From Streptomyces sp. NP160 (GTDB taxonomy: Bacteria; Actinomycetota; Actinomycetes; Actinomycetales; Quadrisphaeraceae), in contig NZ_VDMJ01000021.1 of NCBI RefSeq assembly GCF_006335115.1, positions 1 to 64,000 on the forward strand: a DNA stretch of 64,000 bases. Direction: 5' to 3'. This document shows, one piece after another, positions 18,501-22,948 of the stretch (positions are counted from its first letter, which is position 1; the number at the start of each line of letters is the position of its first letter). A program made the translations under genes and the position numbers. The notes beneath the pieces are model-generated. The model saw only the letters and a list, made by a program, of their open reading frames with translations. It did not search any database and was not told the origin of the DNA.

Positions 18501-18813
18501 CGCCGCCCAGCGGGCCGTGGCCGACGCCGACCGCACGGGGGAGAGGTTCTACCTGCCGGCCGTCCACCTGCAGGTCGCGGCGCTCGCGGAGCGGACGGGC
18601 GCGGCGGCCGACGTCGTCGCACGCCACCGCGAGATGGCCGAGCGCACGGCGGAGGAGACCGGCGCCGTCGGCCTGCTGCGCCGCGACCCCAGCAGCGCTC
18701 AGGAGAGGGCTTCGACCACGTGGTCGACGCACGCCGTGAGCGCGGAGACGTCGTGCGGGTCGACGGCGGGGAACATGCCCACGCGCAGCTGGTTGCCGCC
18801 GAGCCCGCGGTAG
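15515..18813 (+). pseudogene. Second AfsR/SARP-family regulator paralogue, frameshifted
   Basis: From GTG 15515 (or 15506, three residues longer) the frame encodes the same DNA-binding region as the upstream copy (VRFEVLGPLRVL, DAVWGED). One base is then lost at about 15774: GCGCCCCCGGGTACCGG replaces the expected Gly-Tyr-Arg codons. The downstream frame resumes with GYRLRVEPGHLDAHRF, the activation domain, an ATPase (VGEAGIGKTRL and LLVVLEDLHWAD) and helical repeats. The repaired product would be about 1100 residues. The frame overruns the 3' end of convergent serC by 115 bases, with the stop at 18811-18813; by comparison with the paralogue the folded part should end near 18690. Stretches of the activation domain are nearly identical in DNA to the first copy. 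Confidence 0.8.
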
Positions 18814-19877
18814 GGCTCGACGTCCACCACGCCGTTGGCGCGCAGCACCGCCCGCACCGCGGCGGCGTCGACCGACGGGTCGAGGTCGACGGTGCCGACC
18901 ACCGGTGAGCGCAGCGTGCGGTCCCGCACGGCCGGGCGCGCGTACTGGCTGGCCTCGGCCCACTCGTACAGGCGCGAGGCCGACTCCGCCGACCGCGCCG
19001 CCGCCCACTCCAGGCCGCCCCGGTCGAGCATCCACTCCACCTGCTCGGCGAGCATGAGCAGCGTCGCCACCGCCGGGGTGTTCACCGTCTGCTCGCGCCG
19101 GCTCTCCGACAGCGCCGCGAGCAGGTCCAGCGAGCCGGGCACCCAGCGGCCCGGCTGCAGCTCCTCGGCGCGCGCGACCGCGGCGGGGGACAGCAGCGCC
19201 AGCCACAGCCCGCCGTCGGAGCCGAAGGACTTCTGGGGGGCGAAGTAGTAGGCGTCGGCCTGCGAGGCGTCCACCGGCACGCCGCCAGCGGCGGAGGTCG
19301 CGTCGACGAGCACCAGCGCGTCGTCGTCGTCCGCCAGCCCGCGGGGGCGGACCACCGGGAGCACCACACCCGTGGAGGTCTCGTTGTGCGGGTAGGCGTA
19401 CGCGTCCACACCCGGCTCGGCGGCGACGGCCGGGGCGCTGAACGGCTCCGAGCGGCGCACGTCGGGGGCGGCGAGGAACGGGGCCGCCGCGGTCGCCTTC
19501 GCGAACTTCTCGCTGAACGCGCCCAGCACGAGGTGCTGGGCGCGCTCGCGGACCAGGCAGGTGGTGGCGACGTCCCAGAAGGTGGTCGACCCGCCGTTGC
19601 CGAGCACCACCTCGTAGCCGTCGGGCAGGGAGAACAGGTCCGTCATCCCCGCGCGGGTGCGCGCCACCAGCGAGCGCACCGGCAGCTGGCGGTGGGAGGT
19701 GCCGAGCACGGTGCGGCCGACCCCGGCGATGGCGGCCACCTGGTCGTCGCGGACCTTGGACGGGCCGGAGCCGAACCGGCCGTCGCGGGGCAGCAGCGAC
19801 GGCGGGACGGTGATGGTGGGCACACCCGCGGCAGCGGGGCCCGGACCTGACGTGTCGCGAACGCTCACGGCGTGCAT
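18699..19877 (-). CDS. serC: Phosphoserine aminotransferase
   Basis: The 392-residue protein matches the actinobacterial SerC subgroup: DGRFGSGPSKVRDDQ near the start, GTSHRQ, LGNGGSTTFWD, and the cofactor-binding ADAYYFAPQKSFGSDGG whose Lys would hold pyridoxal phosphate. It transfers an amino group from glutamate to 3-phosphohydroxypyruvate in serine synthesis; in some bacteria the same enzyme also acts in pyridoxal phosphate synthesis. The ATG at 19877 is ten bases from the divergent GTG of pdxH, so the two promoters must overlap each other's coding sequence. A GTG nine bases inside is an alternative start. The pairing with pdxH makes functional sense because SerC needs the PdxH product. 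Confidence 0.95.
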   Translation of the reverse strand: MHAVSVRDTSGPGPAAAGVPTITVPPSLLPRDGRFGSGPSKVRDDQVAAIAGVGRTVLGTSHRQLPVRSLVARTRAGMTDLFSLPDGYEVVLGNGGSTTFWDVATTCLVRERAQHLVLGAFSEKFAKATAAAPFLAAPDVRRSEPFSAPAVAAEPGVDAYAYPHNETSTGVVLPVVRPRGLADDDDALVLVDATSAAGGVPVDASQADAYYFAPQKSFGSDGGLWLALLSPAAVARAEELQPGRWVPGSLDLLAALSESRREQTVNTPAVATLLMLAEQVEWMLDRGGLEWAAARSAESASRLYEWAEASQYARPAVRDRTLRSPVVGTVDLDPSVDAAAVRAVLRANGVVDVEPYRGLGGNQLRVGMFPAVDPHDVSALTACVDHVVEALS

Positions 19878-19887
19878 CCTGCACCGT

Positions 19888-20571
19888 GTGGAGAGCGTGA
19901 GCAGCGAGCTGGCCGAGCACCGCGTCGACTACTCCGACGCCGGCCTGGACGCCACCGACCTCGCCCCGACCCCGCTGGAGCAGTTCCACCGCTGGTGGGA
20001 CGAGGCGAGCTCCGACCCGAGGATCGCCGAGCCGAACGCCGTGGTGCTGGCCACCGCGGACTCCCAAGGCCTGCCCGACGCGCGCACCGTGCTGCTCAAG
20101 GGCGCTGACGCCCGCGGGTTCGTCTTCTACACCAACCTCGGCTCCGCCAAGGCCCGCCAGCTGGCCGCCGTGCCCCACGCGGCGCTCGTCCTGCCGTGGC
20201 ACCCGCAGCAGCGCCAGGTGCGCGTGCGGGGGGCGGTGGAGCAGGTGAGCCGCGAGGAGAGCGCCGCGTACTTCGCCTCCCGCCCGCGCGGGTCGCAACT
20301 GGGCGCCCACGCCTCCCGGCAGAGCGCCGAGGTGGCCTCGCGCGAGGACCTGGCGCGCGCCTACGAGGAGGCGGCCGCCCGCTTCCCCGAGCCGGGCGAG
20401 GTGCCGCTGCCCGACGGGTGGGGCGGGTTCCTGGTGCGGCCGGTGGAGGTGGAGCTGTGGGTGGGGCGCCGCTCCCGGCTGCACGACCGGCTGGTCTACC
20501 TGTCGGTCAGCGGAGGGCCGGCGCCCCTGGACGACGCCGGCGCGTGGCGGGTCGTCCGCCGCCAGCCGTGA
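19888..20571 (+). CDS. pdxH: Pyridoxamine 5'-phosphate oxidase
   Basis: A 227-residue flavoprotein that oxidises pyridoxamine or pyridoxine phosphate to pyridoxal phosphate using FMN and oxygen. Family blocks are PLEQFHRWWDEA, NAVVLATADSQGLPDARTVLLKG (FMN-binding strand pair), FVFYTNLGSAKARQL, FASRPRGSQLGAHASRQS and the C-terminal WRVVRRQP. GTG 19888 gives a normal N-terminus; GTG 19897 is also possible. The start is ten bases from divergent serC. The 3' end is one base from the convergent stop of the PIG-L gene, leaving no room for a separate terminator. Confidence 0.95.
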   Translation: MESVSSELAEHRVDYSDAGLDATDLAPTPLEQFHRWWDEASSDPRIAEPNAVVLATADSQGLPDARTVLLKGADARGFVFYTNLGSAKARQLAAVPHAALVLPWHPQQRQVRVRGAVEQVSREESAAYFASRPRGSQLGAHASRQSAEVASREDLARAYEEAAARFPEPGEVPLPDGWGGFLVRPVEVELWVGRRSRLHDRLVYLSVSGGPAPLDDAGAWRVVRRQP

Positions 20572-20572
20572 G

Positions 20573-21322
20573 TCACTGCTGCAGGGCGAGCTCCACGGCG
20601 AGCACGGCGCGGCCCTCCCAGCCCGGCTCGTCGCGGCGCACCACCTGCCGGTAGACCTCCTCGGCCTGCCGGCGCACGGGGACGTCGGGGTCGAGCGCGC
20701 GGAAGTACTCCTCGTGCAGCGCCAGCGCCGCGATCCCGGCCTCCTCGGTGTCCGTGACGTCGACGACGTGGGTGGGGGCGGTGCTGTTCGCGACGACGAC
20801 GCGGCGCACGCCCTTCCAGGGCGCGAAGCCCTCGTGGCCGAGCTCGGGGAAGATCCAGCGGTTGGCGGCGTCGGCGACGGCGTCGAGCACGGTGCGGCCC
20901 AGCGCCCGGTGGTCGGCGGAGTTCCAGCTGCCGGGGCCCCAGGTGTCGTGGTGGTTGATGGTCACCACGAGGTGCGGGCGGTGCTGCCGGACGGCGCGGG
21001 CGATGTCGAGGCGCAGGTCGATGCTCTCGGTGAGGCGGCCGTCGCGGTGGCGGAAGAACTCCACCTCCCGCACGCCCACGGCACCCGCGCTGGCCAGCTC
21101 CTCGGCCTCGCGCAGCGGGCCCGCCTTCGCCGGCGGGACGGTGTCGATCCCCGCCTCGCCGGAGGTGGCCATCGCGTAGACCACCTGCTTGCCCGCCGCC
21201 GTCCAGCGGGCCACGGCGGCGGCGGTGCCGTACTCGACGTCGTCGGGGTGGGCCACCACGCACAGCACCCGGTCGAAGTCCTCGGGGAGGCCGGGCAGGG
21301 GCGTCGGGGCGGCGTCGCTCAC
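20573..21322 (-). CDS. PIG-L/LmbE-family N-acetylglucosaminyl deacetylase-like hydrolase
   Basis: A 249-residue zinc hydrolase. The metal site block VVAHPDDVEYGTAAAVARW near residue 20 and HDTWGPGSWNSADHRALG near 140 contain the His-Pro-Asp-Asp and Asp-His residues of the family. Members include MshB and Mca of mycothiol metabolism and enzymes that deacetylate sugar precursors. Which substrate applies here is not clear, because the sequence is not an obvious MshB. GTG 21322 was chosen over an upstream start because it gives a compact family-like N-terminus and has CACGAT six bases before it on this strand. The gene is divergent from the MFS leader region. Confidence 0.85.
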   Translation of the reverse strand: MSDAAPTPLPGLPEDFDRVLCVVAHPDDVEYGTAAAVARWTAAGKQVVYAMATSGEAGIDTVPPAKAGPLREAEELASAGAVGVREVEFFRHRDGRLTESIDLRLDIARAVRQHRPHLVVTINHHDTWGPGSWNSADHRALGRTVLDAVADAANRWIFPELGHEGFAPWKGVRRVVVANSTAPTHVVDVTDTEEAGIAALALHEEYFRALDPDVPVRRQAEEVYRQVVRRDEPGWEGRAVLAVELALQQ

Positions 21323-21354
21323 GCGGCCATCGTGGCAGCCGCCGACGGGCCGGG

Positions 21355-21392
21355 AAAAAGGTCTCGACGCCCCGCGGAAGCGGACGTAGCGT
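21355..21392 (+). promoter_or_regulatory. WhiB7-like promoter of the MFS leader transcript
   Basis: Five consecutive A residues (21355-21359) lie four bases upstream of TCGACG (21364-21369), a -35 matching four of six consensus positions, followed after 17 bases by TAGCGT (21387-21392) as the -10. An A/T-rich block immediately upstream of the -35 is the hallmark of promoters activated by WhiB7, the ribosome-stress regulator of actinobacteria. A-runs are rare in this G+C-rich sequence. Transcription would start near 21399. Assignment is from architecture only; whiB7 itself is not in the window. Confidence 0.6.
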
Positions 21393-21398
21393 GGAGGC

Positions 21399-21637
21399 AC
21401 ACGGGAGAGGAGGTGATCCGAGAAGTGGTTGTTCTTCGGACGCGTGAGGTGACTGCCCGCTAGCCGTCAGGCAGCGTGAGCCACCCGGACGGCCTGCTAG
21501 TCCCAGGCAGTCACCGGAGCCCGCGGGAGTCGCGCCCTCGTCCAGCGCGACGCCCCCTCCAGGTCGGAGGGGAGCCCGCGGGCTCTTCCACGCCCTGGGA
21601 GGCGGCGGGGACGCCCCTGACAGGTGCCTGAGGCACC
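21399..21637 (+). ncRNA. Structured leader RNA (candidate ribosome-stall attenuator) of the MFS exporter gene
   Basis: A 240-base leader between the predicted start of transcription and the MFS start codon. It holds a 12-codon uORF and these exact pairings: 21448-21457 with 21506-21515 (10 bp, the 5' arm inside the uORF); 21468-21472 with 21492-21496, stacked on 21460-21463 with 21497-21500; 21517-21527 with 21575-21585 (11 bp), enclosing two hairpins (21529-21534/21546-21551 and 21554-21560/21566-21572) as a three-way junction; and 21623-21628 with 21632-21637 directly before the start codon. A ribosome halted in the uORF would cover the 5' arm of the first stem and refold the rest. The folding was done by eye and is not energy-checked. 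Confidence 0.65.
21425..21463 (+). CDS. 12-residue leader peptide with Arg-Thr-Arg motif
   Basis: The uORF reads M-V-V-L-R-T-R-E-V-T-A-R from GTG 21425. Its ribosome-binding site AGGAGGTGATCC (21408-21419) is perfectly complementary to the last 12 bases of the usual 16S rRNA 3' end, and two further bases pair if one G-U is allowed. This is far stronger than any other site in the window. Residues 5-7, Arg-Thr-Arg, fit the +X+ pattern at which macrolides arrest ribosomes in known leader peptides. The codons after the motif form the 5' arm of a 10-bp stem in the leader RNA. The small size makes coding status uncertain, but site, motif and structure agree. Confidence 0.65.
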   Translation: MVVLRTREVTAR

Positions 21638-22948
21638 ATGGACCCGATGTCCGCGCTGCTCCTCGACACGGCCCCGCTGCGCTCCTCGCCGGAGTACCGG
21701 CGGCTGTGGATCGGTCTCACCCTCGCCGGGGTCGGCAGCCAGCTCGGGGTGACCGCCGTGGCGCTGCAGGTCTACGAGCTGACCCGCTCGTCGTTCGCCG
21801 TCGGCCTGGTGGGTCTGGTCTCCTTCGTCCCGCTCGTGGTGCTCGGCCTCTACGGCGGCGCCCTCGTGGACGCCCACGACCGGCGCCGCGTCATCGTGCT
21901 GTCCTCGGCGGCCCTGCTCGTCGCCTCGGTGCTCATCGCCGGCCAGGCCTGGCTCGACGTCGGCTCCGTGGTCCTGCTGCTGGGGCTGGTGGCCCTGCAG
22001 AGCGCCGCGTTCGCCGTGAACTCCCCGGCGCGCACCGCGATCATCCCCATGCTCGTGCCGGTCGAGCAGCTCCCGGCCGCCAACGCCCTCGGCACGCTGT
22101 CGATGAACCTCGGCGTCACCGTCGGGCCGCTGGTCGGCGGCCTGCTGGTCGGCACGGTGGGCTTCGGGCCCGCCTACACGATCGACGTCGTCACGCTGCT
22201 CGTCGCCCTGGTCACCGTGCTGAGCCTGCCGCCGCTGCCGCCCCTCGGCGGCGCGCGGAAGGCCGGCCTGGCCAGCGTGCTGGAGGGCCTGCGCCTGCTC
22301 AGGGGCTGGCGCAACGTGCGCATGACGTTCCTGCTGGACATCTGCGCGATGGTGCTCAGCCAGCCCCGTGCCCTCTTCCCCGCCGTCGGAGCCGTCCTCA
22401 TCGGGGGAGGGGCGACGACGGCGGGCGTGCTCGCCTCGTCCGTGGCCGTCGGGTCCGTGCTCGCCAGCCTCGTGTCCGGGCCGCTGGGGCGCGTCCACCG
22501 CCACGGCGTGGCCATCGCGGTGTCGGTGGCGGCCTGGGGCGCCGCGATCGTCGCGTTCGGCCTGGTGCTGCTGCTGGCCTCGCCGTCCGCCGCGCACACC
22601 GGGTCGGTCACCTCGACCGCCGTGCCCTGGGCGTCGTGGCACCTGTGGGCGGCCTGCACCGCCCTGGCGGCGGCCGGCGCGGCAGACGCCGTCAGCTCGG
22701 TGTTCCGCCAGACCGTGCTGCAGTCCGCCGCGCCCGACTGGGCCCGCGGTCGCCTGCAGGGCGTCTTCATCGTGGTGGTGGCCGGCGGCCCCCGCCTGGG
22801 CGACCTCGTCGCCGGGGCCGACGCCGACGCGCTGGGTGAGGCGCTGGCGGCGGTGGTCGGCGGCGTGGCGTGCGTGCTCGCCGTCGTCGTCCTCATGGCC
22901 TGGCAGCGGGGGTTCCTGCGGTACGACGCGCGCGACCCCGTCCCCTGA
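21638..22948 (+). CDS. MFS drug-efflux transporter controlled by the leader RNA
   Basis: A 436-residue, roughly 12-segment MFS_3-family exporter: SPEYRRLWIGLTLAGVGSQLG at the N-terminus, GALVDAHDRRRVIVLS in the first cytoplasmic loop, NSPARTAIIPMLVP, and NALGTLSMNLGVTVGPLVGG. It is homologous to the MFS gene at 5.8 kb but clearly divergent from it. It likely exports antibiotics; the upstream promoter and stalling-type leader suggest ribosome-targeting drugs such as macrolides. ATG 21638 follows directly on a 6-bp hairpin and has no Shine-Dalgarno at normal distance, so translation may depend on leader refolding. ATG 21647 is an alternative start. It ends 18 bases before the convergent photolyase gene. 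Confidence 0.9.
   Translation: MDPMSALLLDTAPLRSSPEYRRLWIGLTLAGVGSQLGVTAVALQVYELTRSSFAVGLVGLVSFVPLVVLGLYGGALVDAHDRRRVIVLSSAALLVASVLIAGQAWLDVGSVVLLLGLVALQSAAFAVNSPARTAIIPMLVPVEQLPAANALGTLSMNLGVTVGPLVGGLLVGTVGFGPAYTIDVVTLLVALVTVLSLPPLPPLGGARKAGLASVLEGLRLLRGWRNVRMTFLLDICAMVLSQPRALFPAVGAVLIGGGATTAGVLASSVAVGSVLASLVSGPLGRVHRHGVAIAVSVAAWGAAIVAFGLVLLLASPSAAHTGSVTSTAVPWASWHLWAACTALAAAGAADAVSSVFRQTVLQSAAPDWARGRLQGVFIVVVAGGPRLGDLVAGADADALGEALAAVVGGVACVLAVVVLMAWQRGFLRYDARDPVP

Follow-up and report, generated by a model that had tools for sequence, protein, structure and literature searches.

Upstream of an MFS transporter gene, the 64,000-nt stretch of DNA analysed here (the window) carries a strong Shine-Dalgarno (SD) sequence, a mini-ORF of 12 codons and several helices, all on the forward strand. 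Is this segment the leader of the transporter gene or an RNA with an identity of its own? The features named by the first-pass annotation, which read them as an undescribed ribosome-sensing leader, are all in the sequence where it had placed them. The element is not undescribed: the Rfam scan that the annotation proposed as a check identifies Ms_IGR-5 (RF02471). The match at 21399–21591 (+ strand) scores 71.9 bits against a gathering threshold of 45 (E-value 6e-14), covers model positions 1–184 of 184 and is the only one in the whole assembly (4.77 Mb, 186 contigs). Because this match lies above the threshold in a scan of the whole window, the element is a member of a known family, and 21399–21591 is an Ms_IGR-5 RNA of roughly 190 nt. 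The family itself is already known. Its Rfam label is "Actinobacteria sRNA", RNA-seq support for it is reported in a reannotation of S. lividans, and in S. avermitilis, where transcripts were also mapped by RNA-seq, one sRNA unit whose start and end were determined is reported to match it. The predicted MFE is −104.1 kcal/mol (z −3.44), and an equally good fold was found in 2 of 200 shuffles. The locus is more than a chance arrangement since the Rfam match is full length and since the ORF frame and helix P2 (see below) are kept across ~200 distinct elements.

A match to RF02471 turned up in 57 of the 296 genomes that sample the phylum (26 of them above threshold), in 150 of 396 genomes of the window's order (141 above threshold) and in 270 of 297 Mycobacterium genomes. 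There is one copy per genome in the phylum and order samples; some Mycobacterium have two and one has four. Two to four matches were seen in G836, G690, G707, G716, G719 and other Mycobacterium genomes, and in four of six genomes inspected the second match is weak, on the other strand and over the P3 hairpin. The window RNA had no match among plasmids at an E-value of 0.01, nor did the pattern of the ORF region match in viral contigs. The 221 elements gathered for comparison were reduced to 210 distinct ones, among which many close relatives remain. Two loci were dropped as duplicates (L192 and L193, of L017 and L014) and three were missed by the element pattern (L009, L042, L198). GGAGGTG and GAGGTGRC served as anchors for every element, and L061–L180 are among the matches listed for a pattern that fixed part of the SD and of the ORF tail, so that these letters are conserved there by construction. 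The start codon, the stop codon, the promoter, the P2 3' arm and the P3 loop lie outside the collection pattern. Among the matches from other classes, an SD followed by GAGGT was found in 38 of 39 rows, L248 giving no anchor and L020 not being an other-class locus.

The genes around the RNA speak against a leader defined by a downstream exporter, as the first-pass annotation had it. Crude gene calls made in this analysis for 195 oriented loci give 109 in which the next downstream gene shares the strand of the RNA, 78 in which it runs against it and 8 in which no such gene was seen; the conserved downstream target gene typical of a stall attenuator is thus not found. The neighbours fall into about 30 clusters on each side of the RNA and include, by Pfam labels taken from one protein per cluster, PNPOx, citrate synthase, a metallo-beta-lactamase-fold protein (14 loci) and a GNAT acetyltransferase (7 loci). 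An MFS_3 homolog, 49–95% identical to that of the window, adjoins the RNA in 18 loci, of which 16 have it downstream (the window and five sister genomes, L191, L014 and eight loci of family f82) and two divergently upstream. With an MFS gene downstream at 16 of 195 loci and an opposite-strand gene next at 78, an MFS-specific leader was rejected as the general identity of the RNA. The window RNA and the Ms_IGR-5 family are alike in having no tie to any one downstream gene. From these mixed contexts it follows that some lineages do have a real MFS link, but that the RNA does not owe its conservation to it. In the two loci with the divergent homolog, both from Nocardioidaceae (L112, L139), a second MFS gene of another cluster lies beyond it, and this second cluster is found directly downstream of the RNA in L094 and L148 (Pfam MFS_1 in L148).

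The MFS_3 gene of the window (PF05977) is placed at 21647–22948 (+), its start taken by eye from the comparison with sister genomes. ATG 21638 falls out of frame in sisters L181 and L183, whereas 21647 is shared, and is for this reason an improbable start. The hairpin that had been noted at the exporter start is predicted by folding at 21623–21637 and does abut ATG 21638, but this codon is probably not where the gene begins, and sisters L184 and L185 have, by eye, not retained the hairpin. The protein was rejected as a member of Tap (28 bits against an NCBIfam cut-off of 625) and of Mef (below cut-off); its best NCBIfam match is EntS, with 186 against a cut-off of 324. A cis attenuator, with the exporter transcribed or translated once stalling in the mini-ORF has altered the fold, would account for the close spacing in the window and four of five sisters, where the gene begins ~20–60 nt after P3 and no −10 is visible in the gap (by eye). 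It would also fit the adjacency of homologous MFS genes in three families of the order, divergent in the two Nocardioidaceae, which suggests a functional link. This reading is nevertheless unlikely: conservation of the RNA extends to loci without such a gene downstream (78 of 195 loci with the opposite strand next, 8 with none seen), ~100 extra nt separate P3 from the MFS gene in sister L182, the +X+ motif is not conserved (see below), and a TANNNT right before the MFS start in at least seven of the eight f82 loci (by eye) means that the gene may have its own promoter there. Read-through from the RNA into the MFS gene is possible in the window's genus.

WhiB7 is a main switch of actinobacterial intrinsic resistance to ribosome-targeting drugs, and the sequences upstream of the RNA point to it. 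The window has an A-rich box GAAAAAG of WhiB7/WblC type at 21354–21360, a −35 element TCGACG at 21364–21369 and a −10 element TAGCGT (TANNNT) at 21387–21392, with a −35 to −10 spacer of 17 bp and the RNA start of the Rfam match (21399) 7 nt after the −10. The published WblC motif is reported as GAAAWY, 3 nt, TKGMNN, 16–19 bp and TANNNT (PMC7157823); the box, the spacing and the −10 of the window agree with the regulon motif and the −35 is one base off. With the best match within an 18-nt stretch taken, 183 of the 190 distinct loci have a TANNNT 21–24 nt 5' of GGAGGTG. When loci are aligned on it, A/T reaches 82, 97, 94 and 74% at −31 to −28, the same spacing as in the window, against 54 and 42% at the two edges of this block and 14–31% at most positions beyond, and the first −35 position is T in 89%. 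Judged from these aligned letters, the logo built from the 183 loci reproduces the motif published for WblC. The genome of the window also encodes a canonical WhiB7 with an AT-hook (L231; PRGRPRK after the WGG motif), and the first-pass proposal of a WhiB7-type promoter is therefore upheld by the box, the spacing, the logo and the presence of WhiB7, with one departure in the −35. The region upstream of this whiB7 has the same kind of promoter box as the window RNA; a GAAAAAC-type box and a uORF-like start with a strong SD were seen there by eye, consistent with autoregulation and attenuation.

Co-occurrence sets the bounds of this link. Within the order, all 20 tested genomes that bear the RNA, hand-picked to span families, have a WhiB7 ortholog (E < 1e-23, other WhiB matches being > 1e-13); of the 20 tested genomes that lack the RNA, which were those listed out of 246, four do. 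An RNA search with laxer filters gave 0 of 28 in these 20 RNA-lacking genomes and eight RNA-lacking Mycobacterium; the same kind of search gave matches in 6 of 6 genomes elsewhere in the analysis. All eight tested Mycobacterium genomes without the RNA still carry WhiB7, which is also present in four tested RNA-bearing Mycobacterium and in RNA-bearing G023 and G204. In G006, an RNA-bearing genome of another class, the ortholog search found no WhiB7. Among the other classes a match below 1e-15 was found in only 9 of 38 RNA-bearing genomes (below 1e-23 in five), and WhiB7 is therefore not a universal driver of the RNA; the WhiB7 box seems, by eye, to be retained at several loci of genomes without an ortholog. 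The co-occurrence pattern thus fits WhiB7 control in Actinomycetia, and such control is probable in most of them.

A published transcript brings experimental data close to this element. The ncRNA1 of M. abscessus is reported to have a WhiB7 motif, a WhiB7 ChIP peak and ~100-fold WhiB7 dependence (PMC10727445). RF02471 with a WhiB7 box is found at 690 and 696 kb in two Mycobacterium genomes taken for M. abscessus relatives (L222, L223), and in Mycobacteroides sp. LB1 (L128) its convergent neighbour encodes a heme-binding protein; ncRNA1 is likewise reported to lie between two genes with a convergent neighbour. From position and neighbours in these other genomes, not from the M. abscessus sequence, we infer that ncRNA1 is RF02471. 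It was presented as an antisense ncRNA, and the account of PMC10727445 as consulted in part names neither an ORF nor a structure, whereas the window RNA has both. An antisense RNA that stabilises the mRNA of the convergent neighbour, as suggested for ncRNA1 (PMC10727445), would explain why ncRNA1 is reported to be complementary to the convergent gene's 3' UTR and why that gene is reported to be ~10-fold WhiB7-dependent (PMC10727445). As an account of the family it is very unlikely: only 24 of 195 loci, mostly of mycobacteria and their relatives, have a THAP4-like heme-binding gene as the next gene, convergent with the RNA, and at loci with another neighbour, or with one on the same strand, the RNA is conserved all the same. 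Four intergenic WblC-dependent ncRNAs are also reported in PMC7157823.

What the RNA holds is first of all a translation signal. The SD AGGAGGTGATCC at 21408–21419 (+) is a perfect complement of 12 nt of the own 16S tail (...GGATCACCTCCTTTCT) and the only such 12-nt site on the + strand of the window; the SD consensus of the family, GaaaGGAGGUGGUCC, can pair with the 16S tail over ~15 nt, one of the pairs being G-U. The mini-ORF that follows at 21425–21463 (+), VVVLRTREVTAR, has 12 codons with a GTG start and a TAG stop, and its frame is kept in the family, bearing out the earlier description of a 12-codon uORF with an SD matching 16S rRNA. A stop is found at the sixth codon from the conserved GAG in 210 of 210 distinct elements (TAG 191, TGA 12, TAA 7). 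Base pairing may also keep the TAG; the stop is kept as such, since 19 elements have TGA or TAA in its place. An ATG, GTG or TTG is found at the proper SD distance in 204 of the 210 elements, of which 197 have an ORF of 12 codons, three of 13 and four of 14, while six have no usual start. By eye, the start place near the usual SD spacing is occupied by ATT, ATC or CTG in L234, L235, L239, L243, L245 and L251. Selection on the mini-ORF is supported by these comparisons, and ribosome protection of Ms_IGR-5 homologues in M. abscessus and M. smegmatis is reported from Ribo-seq (PMC4974804).

Codons 2–4 of the mini-ORF vary freely and the remainder reads NGG ACN YGU GAG GUG RCU GNN NGC. The Arg-Thr-Arg that had been singled out as a +X+ arrest signal is present at codons 5–7 (21437–21445, +), but among 197 twelve-codon ORFs the three residues are RTR in 103, WTC in 46, RTC in 15, WTR in 14, GTR in 14 and others in five. 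Arg-Thr-Arg is therefore not a family feature, and +X+ arrest was rejected as a conserved principle. The strong SD and the uORF of a stall attenuator are thus found, with SD and frame conserved, whereas a conserved arrest motif is not. Strict conservation of the ORF could also be read as a sign that the 12-residue peptide is the product; many of the conserved residues fall on bases that pair in P2 and in the pseudoknot, and with codons 2–4 free this is extremely improbable and was rejected for the main product. Another use of the strong SD would be that of a ribosome decoy, in which the anti-16S stretch and an internal SD-like site hold on to 30S subunits or to ribosomes carrying a drug, the ORF being a mere landing strip. 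The complementarity of GaaaGGAGGUGGUCC beyond a normal SD and the GAGGUG 9 nt before the stop would suit it; very high RNA amounts would be required, and the exact ORF length, P2 and the pseudoknot would be left unexplained, which makes it quite unlikely. The internal SD-like GAGGTGA lies at 21446–21452 (+), its GAGGUG being part of the ORF-tail consensus; the motif is shared by the elements and was also an anchor for gathering them. It could hold the terminating ribosome.

The codons of the ORF tail take part in the fold. Codons 8–11 (21448–21457, +) form the 5' arm of P2, a 10-bp helix whose 3' arm GGCAGTCACC lies at 21506–21515 (+); in the family these codons pair with GCAGYCACC. Each of nine pairs is found in 187–203 of 203 elements, a paired fraction inflated by the choice of partners by best pairing score, and 7 of 210 elements had no partner. 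Several pairs show compensatory types (GU 90, GC 70, AU 27; UA 186, CG 5; for the last pair CG 120, UG 38, UA 30, GC 8), and in other classes CUGC:GCAG becomes CCGG:CCGG (by eye). These comparisons show P2 as a conserved helix of the family, and the stem that the first-pass annotation drew from the last uORF codons stands across the 203 elements. Pairing of the SD with CACC was considered as a competitor of P2. The second stem of that annotation, enclosing two hairpins, is also present, with 12 bp and not 11: the outer helix P3 of the last domain pairs 21516–21527 with 21575–21586 (+), the latter placed by the Rfam alignment and folding in an RNA 3' region without a U-tract. By folding, P3 encloses the P3a hairpin with a GUCC loop (21529–21551, +) and a second hairpin at about 21554–21572 (+). 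In two deep variants (L253, L256) a plain terminator-like hairpin replaces the one with the GUCC loop. Five elements of other classes (L234, L235, L237, L238, L245) have, by eye, a strong hairpin some tens of nt past P3, in some followed by a T-run; this is as expected if the RNA is free-standing.

A further pairing would join the ORF to the last domain. GGACG in codons 5–6 (21438–21442, +) is complementary to CGUCC in the P3a loop (21539–21543, +). Among the 190 elements retained (20 of 210 were dropped) the core pairs are GGAC:GUCC in 183, GGAC:GUCG in five, CGAC:GUCG in one and GGAU:GUCC in one, a pairing that is largely by construction because the letters GGAC and GUC(C) served to locate the two sites. 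The fifth pair, between the wobble base of codon 6 and the base before GUCC, is Watson-Crick in 115 of 190 elements against 57.5 ± 6.3 in shuffled data (z 9.2). This register is the best of 14, the 13 others having z of −4.6 to 4.6, and one of three control ORF columns gives z 5.2. Within elements of less than 75% identity the count is 30 of 62 against 17.7 ± 3.4 (1 of 3000), and below 70% identity 18 of 40 against 10.8 ± 2.7 (26 of 3000). A tree count of joint changes at the fifth pair gave no excess over control registers (seven shared branches, three of them restoring the pair), and a sixth pair with the first base of codon 5 showed no covariation (66 of 208 against 60.5 ± 5.9). Some loops behind these counts are mis-picked, for example that of L023. 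In other classes the loop was found in 31 of 38 elements, and 150 of 186 pairs are Watson-Crick against 139.0 ± 3.0 (1 of 5000), with several loops mis-picked (among them L022, L023, L028, L030, L239, L241, L242, L243, L247, L253). The core has changed on both sides to CGAC/U:GUCG in four other-class elements (L019, L021, L233, L236), and L258 has, by eye, UGAC with GUCA. A SD (GUCC)-GGAC hairpin was considered as a competitor for the same bases. These comparisons make a pseudoknot between codons 5–6 and the P3a loop highly likely.

The same loop could be the seed of an ordinary trans-acting sRNA, hidden by the pseudoknot and exposed by ribosomes on the mini-ORF. The stand-alone contexts with an own promoter and the conserved loop sequence would agree with this, and the Ms_IGR family reportedly originated from an Hfq-type pull-down, which was counted in its favour. 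The conservation of the loop is explained by its pairing with the ORF, and we know of no target of the Ms_IGR-5 RNA; a plain sRNA of this kind is doubtful.

The reading preferred here, which we hold to be moderately probable, is that of a mini-mRNA that stands on its own, is induced by WhiB7 and signals through its fold whether ribosomes occupy it or how far they have moved. The WhiB7-type promoter would drive the RNA when ribosomes are inhibited, and ribosomes would load on the exceptionally strong SD and translate 12 codons that form part of the RNA fold, codons 5–6 pairing with the last hairpin loop in the pseudoknot and codons 8–11 making P2. The fold would report occupancy because an initiating, stalling or terminating ribosome must open those pairings: a ribosome on the start codon would be expected to sit over codons 5–6, and one on the stop codon over the P2 5' arm. 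Masking of ribosome footprints in folding removed the 5' pairings or P2 and left P3 in place, for one sequence folded without pseudoknots and with the footprints placed one base late. The shape of the RNA should differ when it is free, loaded, stalled or emptied, and translation status would in this way switch the RNA. The output is probably the RNA itself because most copies are without a shared cis target; it may lie in the RNA's own stability, in an activity in trans or, in this genus, in read-through into the MFS gene that has no recognisable promoter. A tentative extension is that of a phylum-wide translation sensor without a cis target, in which ribosome traffic toggles a closed and an open form in the WhiB7 response, the open form acting in trans or sequestering ribosomes.

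Short ORFs with codons in a stem are known from the erm leader peptides of macrolide attenuation. The window RNA is like them in this respect and differs in that its family has neither a conserved arrest motif nor a conserved downstream gene. The whiB7/wblC 5' leader is reported to have an SD followed by a short uORF and a link to the antibiotic response, as here, together with one fixed downstream gene and a U-rich terminator (PMC4128351), whereas the family of the window RNA has no fixed gene. The peTrpL of S. meliloti (PMC7298713) is a short leader ORF similarly tied to drug-resistance genes; its peptide is said to act in trans (PMC7298713), while the peptide of the window RNA is not conserved outside the paired bases. 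The Rfam consensus of Ms_IGR-5 differs from the structure found here in pairing other bases in the 5' half and in leaving the P2 3' arm unpaired, and it contains neither the mini-ORF nor the pseudoknot. In the literature searched, a body in which most subscription papers lay outside coverage, no mention of the ORF, P2 or pseudoknot of RF02471 was found, and the WhiB7-type, translated, pseudoknotted reading of the family is new as far as these searches reach. If true, an RNA of this kind, which also occurs in genera that have laboratory strains, would be a missing regulatory RNA of the WhiB7 antibiotic response; the reading also suggests that one "orphan sRNA" in Rfam is translated and has a structure absent from the current model.

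On the other side of the RNA in the window, the divergent neighbour is a gene for a PIG-L family deacetylase (PF02585) at 20573–21322 (−), its start deduced from the reading frame and from the relative L182. The PIG-L gene is itself preceded, at window 18699–20571, by genes for a class-V aminotransferase and a pyridoxamine phosphate oxidase. Note that pyridoxamine phosphate oxidase and citrate synthase genes adjoin the RNA in other genomes too, and a site by such genes is perhaps the ancestral site of the RNA.
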